A stretch of DNA of 64,000 nt, from contig JAFANP010000028.1 in NCBI GenBank assembly GCA_019232625.1, positions 62,001 through 126,000 on the forward strand. Direction: 5' to 3'. Of this stretch, positions 1,624-9,229 are shown piece by piece. Below the pieces are notes generated by a model that saw only the letters and a list, made by a program, of their open reading frames with translations, was not told where the DNA came from and searched no databases. The DNA is from Alphaproteobacteria bacterium. GTDB taxonomy: Bacteria > Pseudomonadota > Alphaproteobacteria > Sphingomonadales > Sphingomonadaceae. The stretch's first letter is position 1. Each line of letters opens with the position of its first letter. A program made the position numbers and the translations under genes.

Positions 1624-1821
1624 TCAGCGCAGGCCCGCCAGCGCCTCCCTCAGCGCGTCGGCGGCGCGGCGCATCTCGGCGAGGTTCGCCTCATGCTCCG
1701 CCTCCGCGGCGGCGAGGTCCGCGCCGCAGAACACGCAATCCTCGCGCCCGTCGAGGTTCACGAACCGGCGGCAGCCGCGGCAGAGGCGGAGAGGCACGGG
1801 GATCCGGCCCGTCTCAGCCAT
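1624..1821 (-). CDS. small zinc-ribbon protein of the peptide-maturase operon
   Basis: Encodes 65 residues with two CxxC knuckles (C14-x2-C17 and C29-x2-C32), a minimal zinc ribbon, followed by a Glu/Ala-rich helix of about 30 residues likely to be a coiled coil. The ATG at 1821 overlaps the end of the radical SAM gene by eight bases (ATGGCTGA), so it is the third gene of that operon. A role as accessory or peptide-binding subunit is inference from context only; it could also bind nucleic acid. Confidence 0.7.
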   Translation of the reverse strand: MAETGRIPVPLRLCRGCRRFVNLDGREDCVFCGADLAAAEAEHEANLAEMRRAADALREALAGLR

Positions 1822-3052
1822 TGACGGCGATCCGGTCCGGCACCCGCGTCGAGGCGGCGGGGGGCACCGGCTCGACGACGATCTCGAACTCGCCATTGTC
1901 GAACGAGCGGCCGGGGGCGTCCCTGACCTTGACGAGGCGTTCGCGAAGGCCACGCGCGTCCATCTCCAGGGCGCGGTGGTGGCACATCGGGTTGTTGCCG
2001 GCGCGGCCCATCAGCGCGTGGCTGGTCCAGGTGCAGCCGGCCATGCAGGTCTCGGCATAATAGCAGGTGCGGCAGAAGCCCCAGAGATCCTCGACGGTGC
2101 GGCGGCGGTTGAAGGCGATCGGCGCGCTATTCTCCCAAATGTCCTTCAGGCGCCGCTCGCGGACGTTGCCGCCGGCATAATCGGCGCCGAGGCCCGGGCA
2201 GCCCTTGATCGTCCCGTCCGCCTCGATCCCCATCACCGTGTCGCCGGCATTGCAGCCGTGGAAGAATATCTCCGGATCGAGGACGTTGCGGATCGTCGAT
2301 TCGTGGGGGCCGAAATAGCCGACGTTGCTGGCCGGCTGGAGGAACAGGCCGCGCTCCCGGCCCTCCACCGCCAGCTCGGCGAGGAGCGGCATCACCTCCA
2401 GCATCTGCCACGGCTGCAGCAGCATCTCGGGATGGTCGGCGGCATTGCCCATCGCGGTGGTGATGGCGAGCTGCCAGTTGGTCGCGCCGGCGTCGATGAT
2501 CACGTCCATCATCTCGCGCAGCTGGGGCAGGGTATAGGCGTTGATCTGGCTGTTGACCGCGGACGAGAGGCCGTGCGCGCGCACGCGGCGAAGCGCGGCG
2601 AGCGCCAGCTCGTAGGAGCCGGGGACGCCGCGCACCTTGTCGTGGGTGGCGCCGATGCCGTCGATCGAGATGCCGACTCCGCACAGGCCCGCGGCGGCGG
2701 CGGCGGCGACGCGCGCCTCGCTGAGGTTGCGCCCGCCGGTCTGGAGGTCGCAGCGCATGCCGGCGGCGCGGATGGCGGCGACGATCTCCAGCCAGTCCTT
2801 CCTGAGATAGGCCTCGCCGCCGATCAGGCCGACGTCGCGGGCGCCGAGCTCGGCGATCTGGCCGACGAGGTCGAGCGCCTCCGCGGTGCTCAGCTCGTCG
2901 CGGCGTCGGCGGCCGGCGCGCGAGCCGCAATGGCTGCAGGCGAGGTCGCAGGCGAGCGTGATCTCCCAGACCACGCTCACCGGCACCCGCTTCACGATGT
3001 CGTCGAGACCCGCATAGCGGACGGGCAGAGCCTCCGCCCGTCTGGCGTCCAT
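1814..3052 (-). CDS. radical SAM/SPASM peptide maturase (GDL-motif peptide-associated type)
   Basis: Encodes 412 residues. The radical SAM cluster motif CxxxCxxC is at C35, C39 and C42. A C-terminal SPASM domain carries seven cysteines (C267, C285, C327, C330, C336, C340, C357), as expected for an enzyme with auxiliary Fe-S clusters. SPASM enzymes next to short peptides usually install carbon-centred crosslinks or epimerise residues in a ribosomally made peptide. The start at 3052 lies one base after the stop of the 75-residue gene upstream, and the stop overlaps the zinc-ribbon gene. From memory it fits the family named for peptides with a GDL motif; that subfamily call needs an HMM search. 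Confidence 0.85.
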   Translation of the reverse strand: MDARRAEALPVRYAGLDDIVKRVPVSVVWEITLACDLACSHCGSRAGRRRRDELSTAEALDLVGQIAELGARDVGLIGGEAYLRKDWLEIVAAIRAAGMRCDLQTGGRNLSEARVAAAAAAGLCGVGISIDGIGATHDKVRGVPGSYELALAALRRVRAHGLSSAVNSQINAYTLPQLREMMDVIIDAGATNWQLAITTAMGNAADHPEMLLQPWQMLEVMPLLAELAVEGRERGLFLQPASNVGYFGPHESTIRNVLDPEIFFHGCNAGDTVMGIEADGTIKGCPGLGADYAGGNVRERRLKDIWENSAPIAFNRRRTVEDLWGFCRTCYYAETCMAGCTWTSHALMGRAGNNPMCHHRALEMDARGLRERLVKVRDAPGRSFDNGEFEIVVEPVPPAASTRVPDRIAVNG

Positions 3053-3053
3053 G

Positions 3054-3281
3054 TCAGCCTGCCTTCTTCGCGGCCGCCTCGAGATGCTGGATGAGCCCGT
3101 CGAGCCCGCCATATTGCGCCTTGACCTCCTTCGCGCCCTTGAGCAGCGCCTGGATCTCGGCGACTTCGCCGCGGTGCAGGATGTCGTCGACGGCCGGACG
3201 ATAGAAGACCCGGCCCGGGTCGAGCAGCCTGTGCAGCAAATCGAGCGTGAGCGGCTGCGTCCTGATAGGGGGTACGCCCAT
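3054..3281 (-). CDS. candidate precursor peptide of the radical SAM operon (DUF1843-like)
   Basis: Encodes 75 residues without cysteine or signal peptide. The ATG at 3281 has a strong ribosome site (GAGGAG) and is first in a three-gene operon, one base before the radical SAM start. Residues 34-70 follow the pattern (I/L)xxGxx..(M/I)xALL..A......GgLxxLIxxLEAA seen in DUF1843/GDL peptides, but the usual GDL is RGEV here (residues 37-40) and a second Gly-rich site, YGGLDGL, is at 57-63. Substrate status is inferred from position and size. It could instead be a recognition protein acting on a peptide encoded elsewhere. Confidence 0.7.
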   Translation of the reverse strand: MGVPPIRTQPLTLDLLHRLLDPGRVFYRPAVDDILHRGEVAEIQALLKGAKEVKAQYGGLDGLIQHLEAAAKKAG

Positions 3282-3693
3282 CTTCGTCTCCTCTCGGCGG
3301 TGAGTCGCCGTCGCAAGGCTGATCTCCAAGGCATGGGCCGCAAAGGCGAAGCTGGTCCCAAACGGACCGGATCGGCGCCGGGCGGAGCCGCCGGGCCCGT
3401 CCGTCTCGTCCGCCGCCCGACCGTACTTCCTAACGTAGATCAGTCGAATCAACGCTTTGGCGGCGGAGTGCCGACCGCCGGGAATTGGCAGCCAAAATGG
3501 ATACAAACCCGGCCGCTCGCGGGGCGGCCGAAGCCGCGCGGAGCCTTCTATCGGGGGCGCGAAAGGTGTAGGCTCGAACCTTCGCGCCATGCTGCGCGCG
3601 GCTGTCGGGGGGCAGCCGTTTCCTGCCCGAGGATGCCCCCTTCCAGCGGGCGCGGTGCGTCGTGCGATCCGGCATAGGGATGAGGGGATCAAC
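3282..3693. promoter_or_regulatory. divergent intergenic region between peptide operon and tyrosinase
   Basis: These 412 bases separate two divergently transcribed units and should hold both promoters. I see the ribosome site of the peptide gene at its left edge and GAGGGGATC just before the tyrosinase ATG at its right edge. There are GC-rich imperfect inverted repeats around 3455-3475, but no operator, RNA gene or promoter that I can name. Confidence 0.4.
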
Positions 3694-6108
3694 ATGCGCA
3701 TTCTCAAAGCTTCCGTGAGCCATGCGGCCTTGCTTGCAGGATTGTCTCTCGGTGCGACCTGCGCCGGCGCGGTCGAGGTTCCGGGCGTCGGCTGGGAAGG
3801 CCAGGGCGCCGACGTCGCCATCGCGCAGCTCGACGGCAATCCGCGGCCCGACATGATCCTCGTCGCCTACGACAATCCCGCGGGCGCCAACAGCTTCCGC
3901 TACAAGGTGGGCTTCAATCTCGACGCCAGCGGCCAGACCGGCAATTGGAGTGGGATGGTGCAGGTCCCCGGCCTCGGCTTCGAAGGCCAGGGCGCGGGCG
4001 CGGCGGTCGCGGACCTCGACGGCAACGGCCGGCCCGAGCTGATCCTGATGGCCTATGACAATCCCGCCGGCGCCAACAATTTCCGCTACACGATCGGCTG
4101 GAACCTCAACGCCCAGGGCATCGCCACCAACTGGTCGAGCCATGCCCAGGTGGCGGGCGTCGGCTGGGAAGGGCAGGGCGCCGCCGTCGTCATCGGCCAG
4201 GTCGACGCCAATCCGCGGCCGGACATGATCTTCATCGCCTACGACAATCCGGCGGGCGCCAACAGCTTCCGATACCGGGTCGGCTTCAACGTCGATACGG
4301 CCGGCAACGCCACCTGGTCGGCCACGGTGGGCCAGACGGCGGGCGTCGGCTTCGAGGGGCAGGGAGCGGGCGCTGCGCTCATCAACACCGACGGCAACCC
4401 GCGGCCGGACCTGGTGCTGATGGCCTATGACAATCCGGCCCAGGCCAACAGCTTCCGCTACAAGATCGGCCTCAACCTCGACACGGCGGGGCAGACGGCG
4501 AACTGGAGCGCGATGACGCAGCTCCCGGGGGTCGGCTGGGAGGGCCAGGGCGCCGGGCTCGCCGTCACCTGCCTCGACAACGATCCGCGCGCGGACTGGA
4601 TCGTGATGGCCTATGACAATCCCCCGCAGGCCAACAGCTTCCGCTACAACGTCCTCCCGAACCAGTCGCAGGCGCCCTGCCCGGCGCCTGTGGGCAGCGG
4701 CGGCGTCGCCGCGGCGCCGCAGCGCAAGTCGATCACCTCGCTGACCGCAGCCGAGCTGGCGAGCCTGAGGAAGGGCGTCGCGCAGATGATCGCGTGGAAC
4801 AGCGCGCCGCGGAACAGCGCCGATTTCCGCCGCAGCCTTCTCTACTGGGCCAACATGCATTCCTATTTCGGCACCAATTGCGAGGACGTGAGCGGCCTCT
4901 CGCAGCCGGGGATGGCGGGAGTCACGGCCCAGTCGATGCAGAATGCCAACGAGACGGCGACCTGGTGCAAGTGCGAGCACGGCACGCCGCAATTCCTCAC
5001 CTGGCACCGCATGTACCTCTATTATTTCGAGCGGGTGCTGCAGGCCGCGGCCGGCGATCCCAACCTCAGGCTCCCCTTCTGGGACTATGAGACGAACGGC
5101 CAGCTTCCGGCCGCCTATCGCGACCTCACCTGGGTGGTCCAGGGCGGCAACCAGCCCAATCCGCTGCGGGTGAACAGCCGCCGCACCAACCTCAACGACG
5201 GAAGCGGCGCGCTCGCCGCCAACGTCACCTCCACCGCCAGCGCGATGGCCCAGACCGGCTACGGCCTGTTCAACAGCCTTCTGGAGGGCACGCCGCACGG
5301 CGCGGTGCATTGCGCGACCGCGGTGCAGAGCTGCCCGACCGGCTATATGGGCGCGGTGCCGGCGGCCGGGCTCGACCCGATCTTCTACTCGCACCATGCC
5401 AATATCGACCGGCTCTACGAATGCTGGCTCAGGGTCAATCCGGCCGCGCGGCTGCCCAGCTCGCCGGCGATCCTCAACGCCACCTTCAGCTTCGTCGACG
5501 GAGACGGCAGCGTCGTGACCCGCAAGGTGGCGGACATGCTGACCGTTCAGCAGCTCGGCTACACCTATGCCGCCGGCGGCGGCTGCCCGGCCGGTTTCGA
5601 GGGCGTGCAGCCGGCCTCGGCGCCCAGCAACGCGCCGACGAAGAGCTTCGACGCGGCCGGGCCGATCCAGCTCAACCGCGGCGTCACCACCGTGCCGGTG
5701 AGGATCGACAGGCAGGTGACCGAGGCGGTGACGAGCGAGGCGCCGGGCGCGCCCCGCTCGCTGCTGATCATCGACGGCCTGACCTTCGACCGGGCGCCGG
5801 GCGTGCTCTACAACGTCTATCTCCAGGGCGCGAACGGACGGCGGGTGCTCGTCGGCGTGATCAACTTCTTCGGCCGGACCGGCATGAACCACAGCGGCCA
5901 TGGCGGCGCCGCCAACCCCGACCAGGTGGTGCTCGACGCGACCGAGGCGGTGCAGGCGCTGGGGCCGAACGCCGCGGCCCAGCCGCAGCTCGTCATCGAG
6001 CCGGCGACCGGCATTGCCGGCAGCTCGACCGAGGAGGCCGTTCAGCAGGTGAGCCCGCAGGCCAACGTCCGCTTCCGGAGCGTCAGGATCGTCCTCCAGC
6101 CGCAATGA
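3694..6108 (+). CDS. secreted tyrosinase with N-terminal FG-GAP/VCBS-like repeats
   Basis: Encodes 804 residues. A signal peptide (about 1-26) is followed by five tandem repeats of 62 residues (about 30-325), each with a PGxGxEGQGA motif, DxNPRPDxIxxAYDNPAxANSFRY-type core and a Trp-Ser end. The tyrosinase core follows: CuA histidines H389, H429 and H438 (in a WHRMYLYYFE context) and CuB histidines H535, H539 and H567/568 (DPIFYSHHANIDR). C427 sits two residues before H429, the CxH arrangement that forms a Cys-His thioether in many tyrosinases. A beta-rich C-terminal domain (about 650-804) resembles polyphenol oxidase tails. It should oxidise phenols or tyrosyl groups outside the cytoplasm. 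Confidence 0.9.
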   Translation: MRILKASVSHAALLAGLSLGATCAGAVEVPGVGWEGQGADVAIAQLDGNPRPDMILVAYDNPAGANSFRYKVGFNLDASGQTGNWSGMVQVPGLGFEGQGAGAAVADLDGNGRPELILMAYDNPAGANNFRYTIGWNLNAQGIATNWSSHAQVAGVGWEGQGAAVVIGQVDANPRPDMIFIAYDNPAGANSFRYRVGFNVDTAGNATWSATVGQTAGVGFEGQGAGAALINTDGNPRPDLVLMAYDNPAQANSFRYKIGLNLDTAGQTANWSAMTQLPGVGWEGQGAGLAVTCLDNDPRADWIVMAYDNPPQANSFRYNVLPNQSQAPCPAPVGSGGVAAAPQRKSITSLTAAELASLRKGVAQMIAWNSAPRNSADFRRSLLYWANMHSYFGTNCEDVSGLSQPGMAGVTAQSMQNANETATWCKCEHGTPQFLTWHRMYLYYFERVLQAAAGDPNLRLPFWDYETNGQLPAAYRDLTWVVQGGNQPNPLRVNSRRTNLNDGSGALAANVTSTASAMAQTGYGLFNSLLEGTPHGAVHCATAVQSCPTGYMGAVPAAGLDPIFYSHHANIDRLYECWLRVNPAARLPSSPAILNATFSFVDGDGSVVTRKVADMLTVQQLGYTYAAGGGCPAGFEGVQPASAPSNAPTKSFDAAGPIQLNRGVTTVPVRIDRQVTEAVTSEAPGAPRSLLIIDGLTFDRAPGVLYNVYLQGANGRRVLVGVINFFGRTGMNHSGHGGAANPDQVVLDATEAVQALGPNAAAQPQLVIEPATGIAGSSTEEAVQQVSPQANVRFRSVRIVLQPQ
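3781..4710 (+). repeat. five tandem 186-bp coding repeats
   Basis: Repeat units begin at 3781, 3967, 4153, 4339 and 4525, exactly 186 bases (62 codons) apart with no insertion or deletion. They encode the beta-propeller-like N-terminal part of the tyrosinase. The third and first units are most alike (GWEGQG), while the second and fourth share FEGQG, an alternating pattern that suggests duplication of a two-unit block. Confidence 0.85.
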
Positions 6109-7184: not shown

Positions 7185-7559
7185 ATGATCGAATCCCTGC
7201 CGCGCCGCGAGCGCGAGATCTTCGAGATCGTGGCCAGCGCCGGCGAGGCGACCGCCGCCGCGGTCCGCGCCGCGATGAGCGACCCGCCCACCCATTCGGC
7301 CGTGCGCACCCTGCTGGCCCGGCTCGAAGGCCGCGGGCTGCTGCGCCACCGCCTGGTCGAGCAGAGCTACGTCTACCGGACGGTGCCCCAGCCGGCGAAG
7401 GTCAGGGAATCGGCGCTGAGGCAGGTCGTCAAAACCTTTTTCAACGGATCGGCGGCGAGCGCCGCGACGGCTCTGCTCGGACTGACCGAGGACCTGGAGC
7501 CGGACGAGATAGAGAAATTGCAGCGGGCGATCGACGAAGCGAGGGAGCGCGGATCATGA
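7185..7559 (+). CDS. BlaI/MecI/CopY-family transcriptional repressor
   Basis: Encodes 124 residues. Winged helix at the N-terminus (residues about 1-75: LPRREREIFEIV..., then a recognition helix with SAVRTLLARLEGRGLL) and a C-terminal dimerisation helix region ending in LEPDEIEKLQRAIDEA. Such repressors leave their operator after cleavage by, or a signal from, a membrane metallopeptidase, and the next gene encodes one with an ATGA overlap. The regulated target here is probably the operon itself and possibly the downstream amidohydrolase. Confidence 0.9.
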   Translation: MIESLPRREREIFEIVASAGEATAAAVRAAMSDPPTHSAVRTLLARLEGRGLLRHRLVEQSYVYRTVPQPAKVRESALRQVVKTFFNGSAASAATALLGLTEDLEPDEIEKLQRAIDEARERGS

Positions 7560-9229
7560 GCTTTCAGTTCCTGGTTGAGATGGCGTGGAAATCGGCGCTG
7601 ATCAGCGGCGCCGCCCTGGTCCTGGCGGGCCTGCTTAGGACCCGCAGCGCCGGGGAGCGCTCGGCCCTGCTCGGCACGGCGGTGGCGCTGATCGTGGCGC
7701 TGCCGGTCATCACCCTGCTGCTGCCCGCGCTCACGGTCGTCACCGGGACGGTGCGGGAGACGGCGCCGGCGACGCCGTCCGCCGGCGAGCTTGCGGCCCT
7801 CGCCGCCGCCGCGCCGGCGACTCGGCCGGGCGGGCTGGACGATCCGACGCCGCTGCTCGAATGGCTGTGGGCGGGGGGCGCGCTGATGGTGCTGGCGCGG
7901 CTGGGCGCCGGCCTGTGGACGCTGCGCCGCTGGACCCGCACCGGCAGCGAGGTCGCCTCGCCCGAATGGTCGGCGGCGCTGGAGCGGGCGAGCGCGCGGT
8001 GCGGGAACCGCCGCGCCATACGCCTGCTCGTTTCCGACGTGGCCTCGCCCTTGAGCTGGGGGGCGCTGCGGCCGGTCATCCTCCTCGACCGCGACACGGC
8101 GCGCGACGAGGGCGAGGCCGATGCGGTGCTGACCCACGAGGTGGCGCATGTCGCCCGCGGCGACTGGCTGGTGCTGATCCTCGCCCGAGTCGCGGTCGCC
8201 TTGTTCTGGTTCAACCCTCTGATGTGGCTGATCGAGCGGCGGATCGTCGGGGAGGCTGAGGAAGCGGCCGACGCCCGGGCGCTCGAGCATGTCGAGCCCT
8301 CCCGCTACGCCCAGACCCTGCTCAGCTGCGCGCAGCAGCAGGCGGCGGCGCGGCTGCCGGCGAGCGGCATGGCGGATGCGCGGCTCAGCCGGCGGGTGCG
8401 GGCGATCCTCGAGCGCCGGCTCCGCGCCGGCGCGCCCGAGCCGCGCTGGATCCGGGCGGCGGTGATGCTGGCCGCGCTCGTCGCCGCGCCGATCGCCGCG
8501 CTGAAGCCGGTCGTCGCGGTGGTGCGCAGCGAGGCGCCGCCGGCGCCGTCCGTCCCGGCCGCCGCTCCGCTGCCGCCGGCGCCGGCGCGCCCCCCCGCGG
8601 CGCCCCGTGCGCCGTCCGCGCCCGAGGCGATGGCGGTGCTCGCCGCCCGCGGCACGCCGCCGACGCCGCCGGGCGCCGCGCCCGCGCCGCCCGCTTTGCC
8701 GGCCGCTCCGGCGATACCCTATGGCGTCATGGCGCCGCCCGCGCCCCCGGCGCCCCCCGCACCGCCGGCGCGAATCCGCCCGCTGATCGACGGCGACGAG
8801 ATAGCGCGCGACGTCCAGGAAGCGATCGCCGAGGCGATGCGCGACAAGGACGAGGCGCTGCGCGAGGCGGCGAACGCCCGCGACGAGGCGATCCGTGAAG
8901 CCACCAGCGAGGCCATGCGCGAGAGCGGGCGGGTCGCGGCCGAGGCCGCCGCGGCGGCGCGCCGCGGCATGGCGGCGGGCGCGCGCGGGATGGCCGAGGG
9001 CGCCCGCGGGATGGAGGAAGGCGCCGACCATATGGACCGCGAGGCCGACAGGCTTCGCTCGCGCGACTATCGCGAGGAGCAGATCGCCCGCTCCGCCCGG
9101 GAAGGGAAGACGGTGACCCACCAGCAGCTGCTCGACATGATCCCGCGGCTCCACGAGGGCGCGCAGAGCATGCGCAAGGGCGCGGCGGAGATGCGCCGAA
9201 GCGCCGACCGGATGCGTCGGCAGGGCTAG
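7556..9229 (+). CDS. M56-family membrane metallopeptidase (BlaR1-like sensor protease)
   Basis: Encodes 557 residues. N-terminal membrane helices (about 10-65), further helices around 100-120, 205-225 and 300-320, and the zinc site HEVAH (H194, H198) in a cytoplasmic loop. The C-terminal half is unusual: a Pro/Ala-rich linker (about 330-410) and then a long charged, Arg/Glu/Ala-rich helical region to the end. There is no penicillin-binding sensor domain as in staphylococcal BlaR1. It presumably cleaves or inactivates the BlaI-type repressor encoded by the overlapping gene; the signal is unknown. Confidence 0.85.
   Translation: MSFQFLVEMAWKSALISGAALVLAGLLRTRSAGERSALLGTAVALIVALPVITLLLPALTVVTGTVRETAPATPSAGELAALAAAAPATRPGGLDDPTPLLEWLWAGGALMVLARLGAGLWTLRRWTRTGSEVASPEWSAALERASARCGNRRAIRLLVSDVASPLSWGALRPVILLDRDTARDEGEADAVLTHEVAHVARGDWLVLILARVAVALFWFNPLMWLIERRIVGEAEEAADARALEHVEPSRYAQTLLSCAQQQAAARLPASGMADARLSRRVRAILERRLRAGAPEPRWIRAAVMLAALVAAPIAALKPVVAVVRSEAPPAPSVPAAAPLPPAPARPPAAPRAPSAPEAMAVLAARGTPPTPPGAAPAPPALPAAPAIPYGVMAPPAPPAPPAPPARIRPLIDGDEIARDVQEAIAEAMRDKDEALREAANARDEAIREATSEAMRESGRVAAEAAAAARRGMAAGARGMAEGARGMEEGADHMDREADRLRSRDYREEQIARSAREGKTVTHQQLLDMIPRLHEGAQSMRKGAAEMRRSADRMRRQG

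Follow-up and report, generated by a model that had tools for sequence, protein, structure and literature searches.

A cassette of three genes lies on the minus strand at positions 3281-1624 of the window (the whole stretch of 64,000 nucleotides that was analysed, from a contig of the Sphingomonadaceae), where the initial annotation had placed a peptide, SPASM maturase and zinc-ribbon unit and where the reading of the open frames finds one. The first open frame (3054..3281, minus strand) encodes P0001, a cysteine-free precursor peptide of 75 amino acids whose predicted modified residue is Tyr27 in the motif V-F-Y-R-P; the ribosome-site stretch noted originally, Shine-Dalgarno-like GAGAGGAGA (3287..3295, minus strand), lies 5' of its ATG. 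The ATG of the maturase gene (1814..3052, minus strand) stands one base past the TGA of the peptide gene, and its product P0002, identified by NCBIfam and Pfam models, is a radical SAM/SPASM enzyme of 412 amino acids that comprises the catalytic part only, with CDLACSHC (CxxxCxxC) and seven cysteines in the SPASM region, CX2CX5CX3C among them. The third gene (1624..1821, minus strand), recognised by a match to the C-terminus of TIGR03913, by a profile of fused tails and from a structure model, encodes P0003, a zinc-ribbon/long-helix protein of 65 amino acids with two CxxC pairs in its sequence. The genes thus abut or overlap as first described, with a 1-base gap between peptide and maturase and an 8-nt stop/start overlap, ATGGCTGA (1814..1821, minus strand), between maturase and zinc ribbon. 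The identical order of peptide, maturase and ribbon recurs in the related loci L005-L008, likewise with the 8-nt overlap, and in L091. Comparison of the window with L005, L007, L008 and L091 gives pN/pS ratios of 0.38-0.55 for the peptide, 0.27-0.39 for the maturase and 0.30-0.61 for the zinc ribbon. The cassette is a real, conserved and selected three-gene unit, beyond chance.

With the own genome included in each count, maturase matches occur in 3 of 249 genomes at family level (E 1e-60), 3 of 396 at order level and 5 of 385 at class level (E 1e-90 for both), and the nearest named copies, among the best 80 of 221 relatives, belong to Sphingomonas. The six genes flanking the cassette in the window are unmatched by tblastn (E 1e-6) in 100 other loci, whose available flanks are mostly 8 kb or less and about 1.5 kb for loci from genome searches, and the cassette therefore seems to travel alone. 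One of the six, divergent from the cassette (3694-6108, plus strand), encodes a tyrosinase (PF00264, 109 bits) at whose N-terminus FG-GAP-like repeats score below cut-off; this gene was considered as a part of the system and rejected on this tblastn result, which the five other flanking genes share. Nothing directly adjoining the cassette in the window encodes a transporter or protease, as noted originally; about 4 kb off (7185-9229, plus strand) lies a BlaI/BlaR1-type pair in which a Penicillinase_R repressor is followed by an M56 (BlaR1-type) peptidase whose long tail is rich in Pro and Ala. Likewise set aside was the idea of a TonB receptor or an ABC transporter as a conserved neighbour: a TonB gene lies upstream in L005 and L007, and L007 and L091 have a downstream gene for an ABC ATPase, neither being seen in all; so was double-glycine export, since the genome has three C39 peptidase-domain matches elsewhere but Gly-Gly 58-59 of the peptide is not conserved.

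Among 71 NCBIfam models P0002 is best matched by TIGR03913 (GDL motif peptide-associated maturase), at 544.3 bits and under the cut-off of 591.75 bits, and next by TIGR04103 (nif11-class maturase 3), at 442.5 bits and far under the cut-off of 725; the third-ranked model reaches only 158.9 bits. Each of the seven relatives scanned (L002, L003, L005, L048, L078, L087 and L088) likewise has these two models on top, with a wide gap below them. We take TIGR04103 to be the PlpX splicease type, and IPR026482 presumably corresponds to it. Pfam cut-offs are exceeded for Radical_SAM (PF04055, 72.1 bits) and SPASM (PF13186, 35 bits), and the solved structures that match P0002 at E 1e-5 represent four distinct sequences: SkfB, PqqE and two of cytosylglucuronate decarboxylase. 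The family check proposed for the enzyme thus places it nearest to the GDL maturases, though below their cut-off. When 35 catalytic cores are placed in a tree with the PlpX-type row as root, P0002 falls among the GDL-type rows, with support of 96/88 and 96/75 on the branches above it and of 100/99 for a clade of sphingomonad loci with split genes; L002, L003 and L087-L089 have long branches. In an earlier quick tree, from which eight ORF rows were absent, the PlpX-type row and the split rows of Myxococcota grouped together. In the literature searched we found no characterised GDL-type maturase, no mention of TIGR03913, and no paper in which radical SAM, zinc ribbon, SPASM and precursor peptide occur together.

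The zinc ribbon, regarded in the initial annotation as an undescribed partner, is the usual C-terminal domain of the maturase carried as a gene of its own. P0003 itself matches positions 419-469 of the 477 of TIGR03913 (31.9 bits, E 4.4e-08) and hence corresponds to the C-terminal end of that model. The neighbourhood survey suggested for the ribbon covered 84 loci, four from genome searches and the best 80 of 221 relatives from one contig scan, and its counts are not independent because many of these loci are Pseudomonas near-copies. Within this set 70 loci have ribbon and enzyme fused, in 13 the ribbon forms a separate downstream gene and in one (L079) it would lie past the contig end; it is absent from none of the 83 loci with sequence there, in all of which it is fused or the next gene. 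A profile of the 70 fused tails matches P0003 with an E value of 8.9e-15; in the ribbon alignment three rows, as set by their row coordinates, lack the first CxxC. An 8-nt ATG..TGA overlap joins the two genes in the window, L005-L008 and L030, and a 4-nt NTGA overlap joins them in seven other split loci (L003, L004, one of Rhodospirillales and four of Myxococcota), and on the tree of 35 cores the fused or split label changes at least three times. A programmed frameshift joining maturase and ribbon was considered and is disfavoured, because the frame offset differs between the 8-nt and 4-nt split groups and no common slippery site was seen.

The structure model of P0003 (pLDDT 90.8) consists of a small ribbon and a long C-terminal helix (residues 36-64). 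Its 114 Foldseek matches against the PDB at E 10, among which are weak ones to ribosomal, RanBP2-type and rubrerythrin chains, include none at E <=0.001, and the sequence has no Pfam match over cut-off. The ribbon profile has no match in L087 or L099; in the latter relative, for which no ribbon was detected, the open frame upstream (2408-2890, minus strand) shows G-Y-G and I-Y-G near its end by eye. The profile also misses a CxxC/CxxC ribbon that is seen by eye at the N-terminus of the enzyme of Tropicibacter L088 (Zn_Ribbon_TF, 16.2 bits, below the Pfam cut-off). This splicease-like enzyme (3725-5347) is encoded on a plasmid, with a second radical SAM gene, a phosphotransferase and trypsin-like and M23 peptidases nearby.

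The precursor was originally compared with DUF1843. By Pfam this comparison fails, since P0001 has no match to DUF1843 (PF08898, gathering cut-off 23.3 bits), nor any NCBIfam match, and the L006 ortholog also lacks a Pfam DUF1843 match; L004 and L003 continue the gradient with 20.8 and 36.6 bits. A profile of the module trained with the sphingomonad clade left out matches P0001 at E 4.9e-4 over residues 25-73, Tyr27 included. The E value of 8.9e-12 obtained for P0001 from a clade-seeded profile is circular. The same clade-out profile gives E values of 5.4e-12 for L003, 1.4e-6 for L004, 0.0064 for L006, about 0.08 for L005 and L007, 1 for L091 and 21 for L008, and in the last five the match starts after Tyr27. 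The DUF1843 tie of the clade peptides accordingly rests in part on the bridge formed by L003 and L004 and on gene position, and the placing of Tyr27 in the core clade on P0001, on that bridge and on the same gene position. P0001, which is 52-57% identical to its orthologs in L005-L008 and L091, appears on this basis to be a far-diverged substrate of DUF1843 type. The earlier proposal that a ribosomal peptide is paired with a SPASM maturase of its own is supported, as is the kinship to DUF1843/GDL systems.

In an alignment of 45 precursor sequences, some rows of which extend 5' of the start codon, Tyr27 is the sole invariant column. The replacement of GDL by GEV was read correctly at the aligned column, and the YGGLDGL near the peptide end is present; the tyrosine in it (Tyr57) is not conserved, whereas Tyr27 is. 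An iterated module profile, with clade members among its seeds and at most one module counted per open frame, detects a precursor in 80 of the 84 loci (best 80 of 221 relatives included), or in 78 after three weak matches are dropped, so that peptide and enzyme are kept together. Four loci have no profile match: the sequence of L030 starts within the maturase gene, and the proteins encoded upstream in L035, L077 and L083 have 202-242 amino acids from the first possible start and two M/L-Y-G copies each. More generally, the precursors of the Myxococcota loci L035, L077, L078 and L083 have about 176-242 amino acids with two such copies each, and the profile matched that of L078 only; in Chromobacterium L048 two modules form the tails of DUF1842 proteins of 212 and 215 amino acids. 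For DUF1842 the own genome gave 0 matches, as did the controls. The column of Tyr27 is tyrosine in 203 of the 203 modules kept, from 78 loci of the set that includes the best 80 of 221 relatives. Circularity was controlled for with a profile that begins only after the tyrosine. Of the matches extending to its first position in these loci, 201 of 201 have tyrosine where it is expected, as do 15 of 15 in loci added afterwards. In the model of P0001, which is of low confidence (pLDDT 69.5), Tyr27 lies in a loop right before the helix of residues 28-37.

The surroundings of this tyrosine are peculiar to the sphingomonad clade. Among the 203 modules, from the set that includes the best 80 of 221 relatives, the following residue is Gly in 95, Ala in 97 and Met in 2 at fused loci, and Arg in 5, Gly in 2, Asp in 1 and His in 1 at split loci. 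Relatives outside the clade mostly have [L/P/M]-Y-[G/A]; the clade keeps the tyrosine and not the Gly/Ala, with Y-R as its form and Y-D and Y-H in two relatives. The preceding residue is Phe in the window, Tyr in L005-L008 and L091, and Val in L003 and L004. The core clade conserves a stretch LDPGRV[FY]YRP, and L091, a further copy of the clade, reads V-Y-Y-R-P. Seven columns of P0002 that are fixed outside the clade are changed in 6 of 6 core members (E73, Q196, V199, G241, N242, W264 and S287, given as the outside residues), and four of the seven are changed throughout when L003 is counted in the clade. Three other clades with several rows show no such change; the single long lineages L087 and L089, in contrast, change 6 otherwise-fixed columns each, so that the seven of the clade need not mean a new specificity. 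Since the clade has Arg, Asp or His after the tyrosine, enzyme and substrate may have shifted together, and the changes fit a shift in site specificity without proving one.

Compared with GDL/DUF1843 systems at large, the window has in common the order of precursor and maturase, the SPASM enzyme, the zinc-ribbon tail and the tyrosine at the start of the module. It differs in that the ribbon is a separate gene, the enzyme falls under the TIGR03913 cut-off, the peptide is unmatched by Pfam DUF1843, Y-R-P replaces Y-G/A within the clade-specific LDPGRV[FY]YRP, and a single precursor stands where many relatives have two to four. A second GDL system in the same genome (L002, G000:C52:67532-69360) is alike in having a GDL-type maturase, also under the TIGR03913 cut-off (459.4 bits), with DUF1843 peptides; unlike the window it has a fused ribbon and three precursors, with P-Y-G, L-Y-G and P-Y-G, and its enzyme is 47% identical to that of the window. 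The cassette is best read as a variant of a recognised maturase family in which the gene is split and the site has shifted.

The chemistry to be expected is suggested by the second model. PlpXY of Pleurocapsa removes the equivalent of tyramine at X-Y-G, the natural sites being MYG and LYG (PMC10533398); PlpX belongs to IPR026482 and its partner PlpY is a truncated RRE (PMC11002830, PMC10373908), and the spliceotide products are cited as protease inhibitors (PMC11117315). The comparison was made through a TIGR04103 enzyme of a Nostoc plasmid, which scores 853 bits, over the cut-off, and is 46.8% identical to P0002. It has 75 of the 83 columns that are invariant over 83 GDL-type rows, and a remoter radical SAM enzyme has 52 of the 83. 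A Nif11 precursor ending in ...IALYGLPPELF, with L-Y-G near its end, is encoded 5' of the Nostoc gene, and a gene for 71 amino acids directly 3' overlaps it by 4 nt. Likeness to the PlpXY type thus consists in close sequence kinship with common invariant columns, a substrate motif centred on tyrosine, and a small protein encoded directly downstream with overlapping stop and start. The window differs in its enzyme score against TIGR04103 (442 bits, cut-off 725), in a precursor with neither a Nif11 nor a nitrile-hydratase leader, in an Arg after the conserved tyrosine (F-Y27-R, no X-Y-G), and in a small protein that is a zinc ribbon and not a truncated RRE such as PlpY. Kinship of the zinc ribbon to PlpY was considered and rejected, as the Nostoc 71-residue protein has no cysteine and no Pfam or NCBIfam match. 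Kinship to the PlpX type together with the invariant tyrosine leads to a prediction of tyramine excision (C8H9NO, about -135 Da), and the loss of 2 Da or deuterium uptake proposed originally as the readout is for the same reasons not the best prediction.

It thus appears somewhat more probable than its negation, at about 0.55, that a splicease-like maturase acts on Tyr27 with an altered site specificity and with the ribbon as a detached subunit. On this reading the precursor would be translated first, and maturase and ribbon subunit would follow by coupled translation from the same message, the three genes presumably being transcribed as an operon. The ribbon would dock on the maturase, to which it is fused in relatives, and probably helps to hold the precursor; its gene occupies the position that the small partner has in a cyanobacterial PlpX-type system. 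The enzyme would then act on Tyr27, with splicease chemistry as the presumed reaction, to give an electrophilic ketoamide, perhaps used as a protease inhibitor, which may be kept in the cell or exported by means of other genes. A more specific proposal is held tentatively, the odds being somewhat against it: that this is a two-subunit splicease in which the ribbon replaces PlpY and which excises tyramine at X-Y-R/D/H, and that DUF1843, until now examined for a possible part in self-assembly, is a module on which spliceases act, built around one invariant tyrosine.

The altered residues themselves could point to another outcome, in which an enzyme of the same family carries out a different reaction at Tyr27, such as side-chain or backbone crosslinking, C-alpha/C-beta cleavage or epimerisation, now that the Gly/Ala and several fixed enzyme residues have changed. 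Of the clade rows, 7 of 7 have Q196A, G241A/S and S287G and 6 of 7 have V199T, N242S and W264F; all 78 other rows, the PlpX-type row among them, are fixed at these columns, and the substrates of the clade carry Y-R, Y-D or Y-H. Such a change of reaction is nevertheless doubtful, since the clade conforms at all 83 columns that do not vary among the 83 GDL-type rows, including the cysteines of the radical SAM and SPASM motifs, and the tyrosine itself is retained. That the enzyme instead targets the literal X-Y-G of the peptide (Q56-Y57-G58), Tyr27 being conserved for structure or recognition, draws on the agreement of Q-Y-G with the published motif and on E-Y-G at that place in L006, L007 and L008; it is quite improbable in view of E-Y-K in L005, E-T-G in L003 and E-F-G in L004 and L091, and of a column that is tyrosine in 16 of 194 module rows with a residue there as against 203 of 203 for Tyr27 (set including the best 80 of 221 relatives).

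The ribbon, for its part, might be an independent regulator or redox partner that does not handle substrate. Zinc ribbons are generic, P0003 has neither a Pfam nor a close PDB counterpart at the thresholds given, and L087 and L099 escape the ribbon profile; fusion in 70 of 84 loci, separation in 13 and absence in 0 of 83 with sequence (best 80 of 221 relatives included), and the N-terminal ribbon on the Tropicibacter enzyme (by eye, below cut-off), make such independence rather unlikely. Decay of the cassette to a remnant whose substrate motif has drifted would account for its rarity among close kin and for the maturase of L004, which is interrupted by an in-frame TAG while its precursor and zinc ribbon are still open; it is very improbable against pN/pS ratios of 0.27-0.61 over all three genes and complete cassettes in the window, L005-L008 and L091.

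Action of a splicease-like maturase on Tyr27 would bear on a wider set of proteins. Strong induction of DUF1842/DUF1843 genes is reported for stationary-phase cells of Burkholderia thailandensis (PMC12322963), and in Chromobacterium subtsugae such genes are reported to be up, together with a GDL maturase, under quorum sensing (PMC12114271); a DUF1842-DUF1843 protein has been crystallised, in a report whose main text does not contain the word "radical" (PMC10994174). If the reading is true, the window clade would show splice sites beyond X-Y-G, in that tyramine loss at X-Y-R/D/H would put an aromatic alpha-keto-beta-residue before Arg and the splice motif would be wider than X-Y-G, and would show that a zinc ribbon can serve as a separate splicease subunit, which would be useful for ketoamide-based protein labelling (PMC10533398). 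Should the invariant tyrosine be the splice site, the DUF1842/DUF1843 proteins would be backbone-edited, electrophilic proteins.
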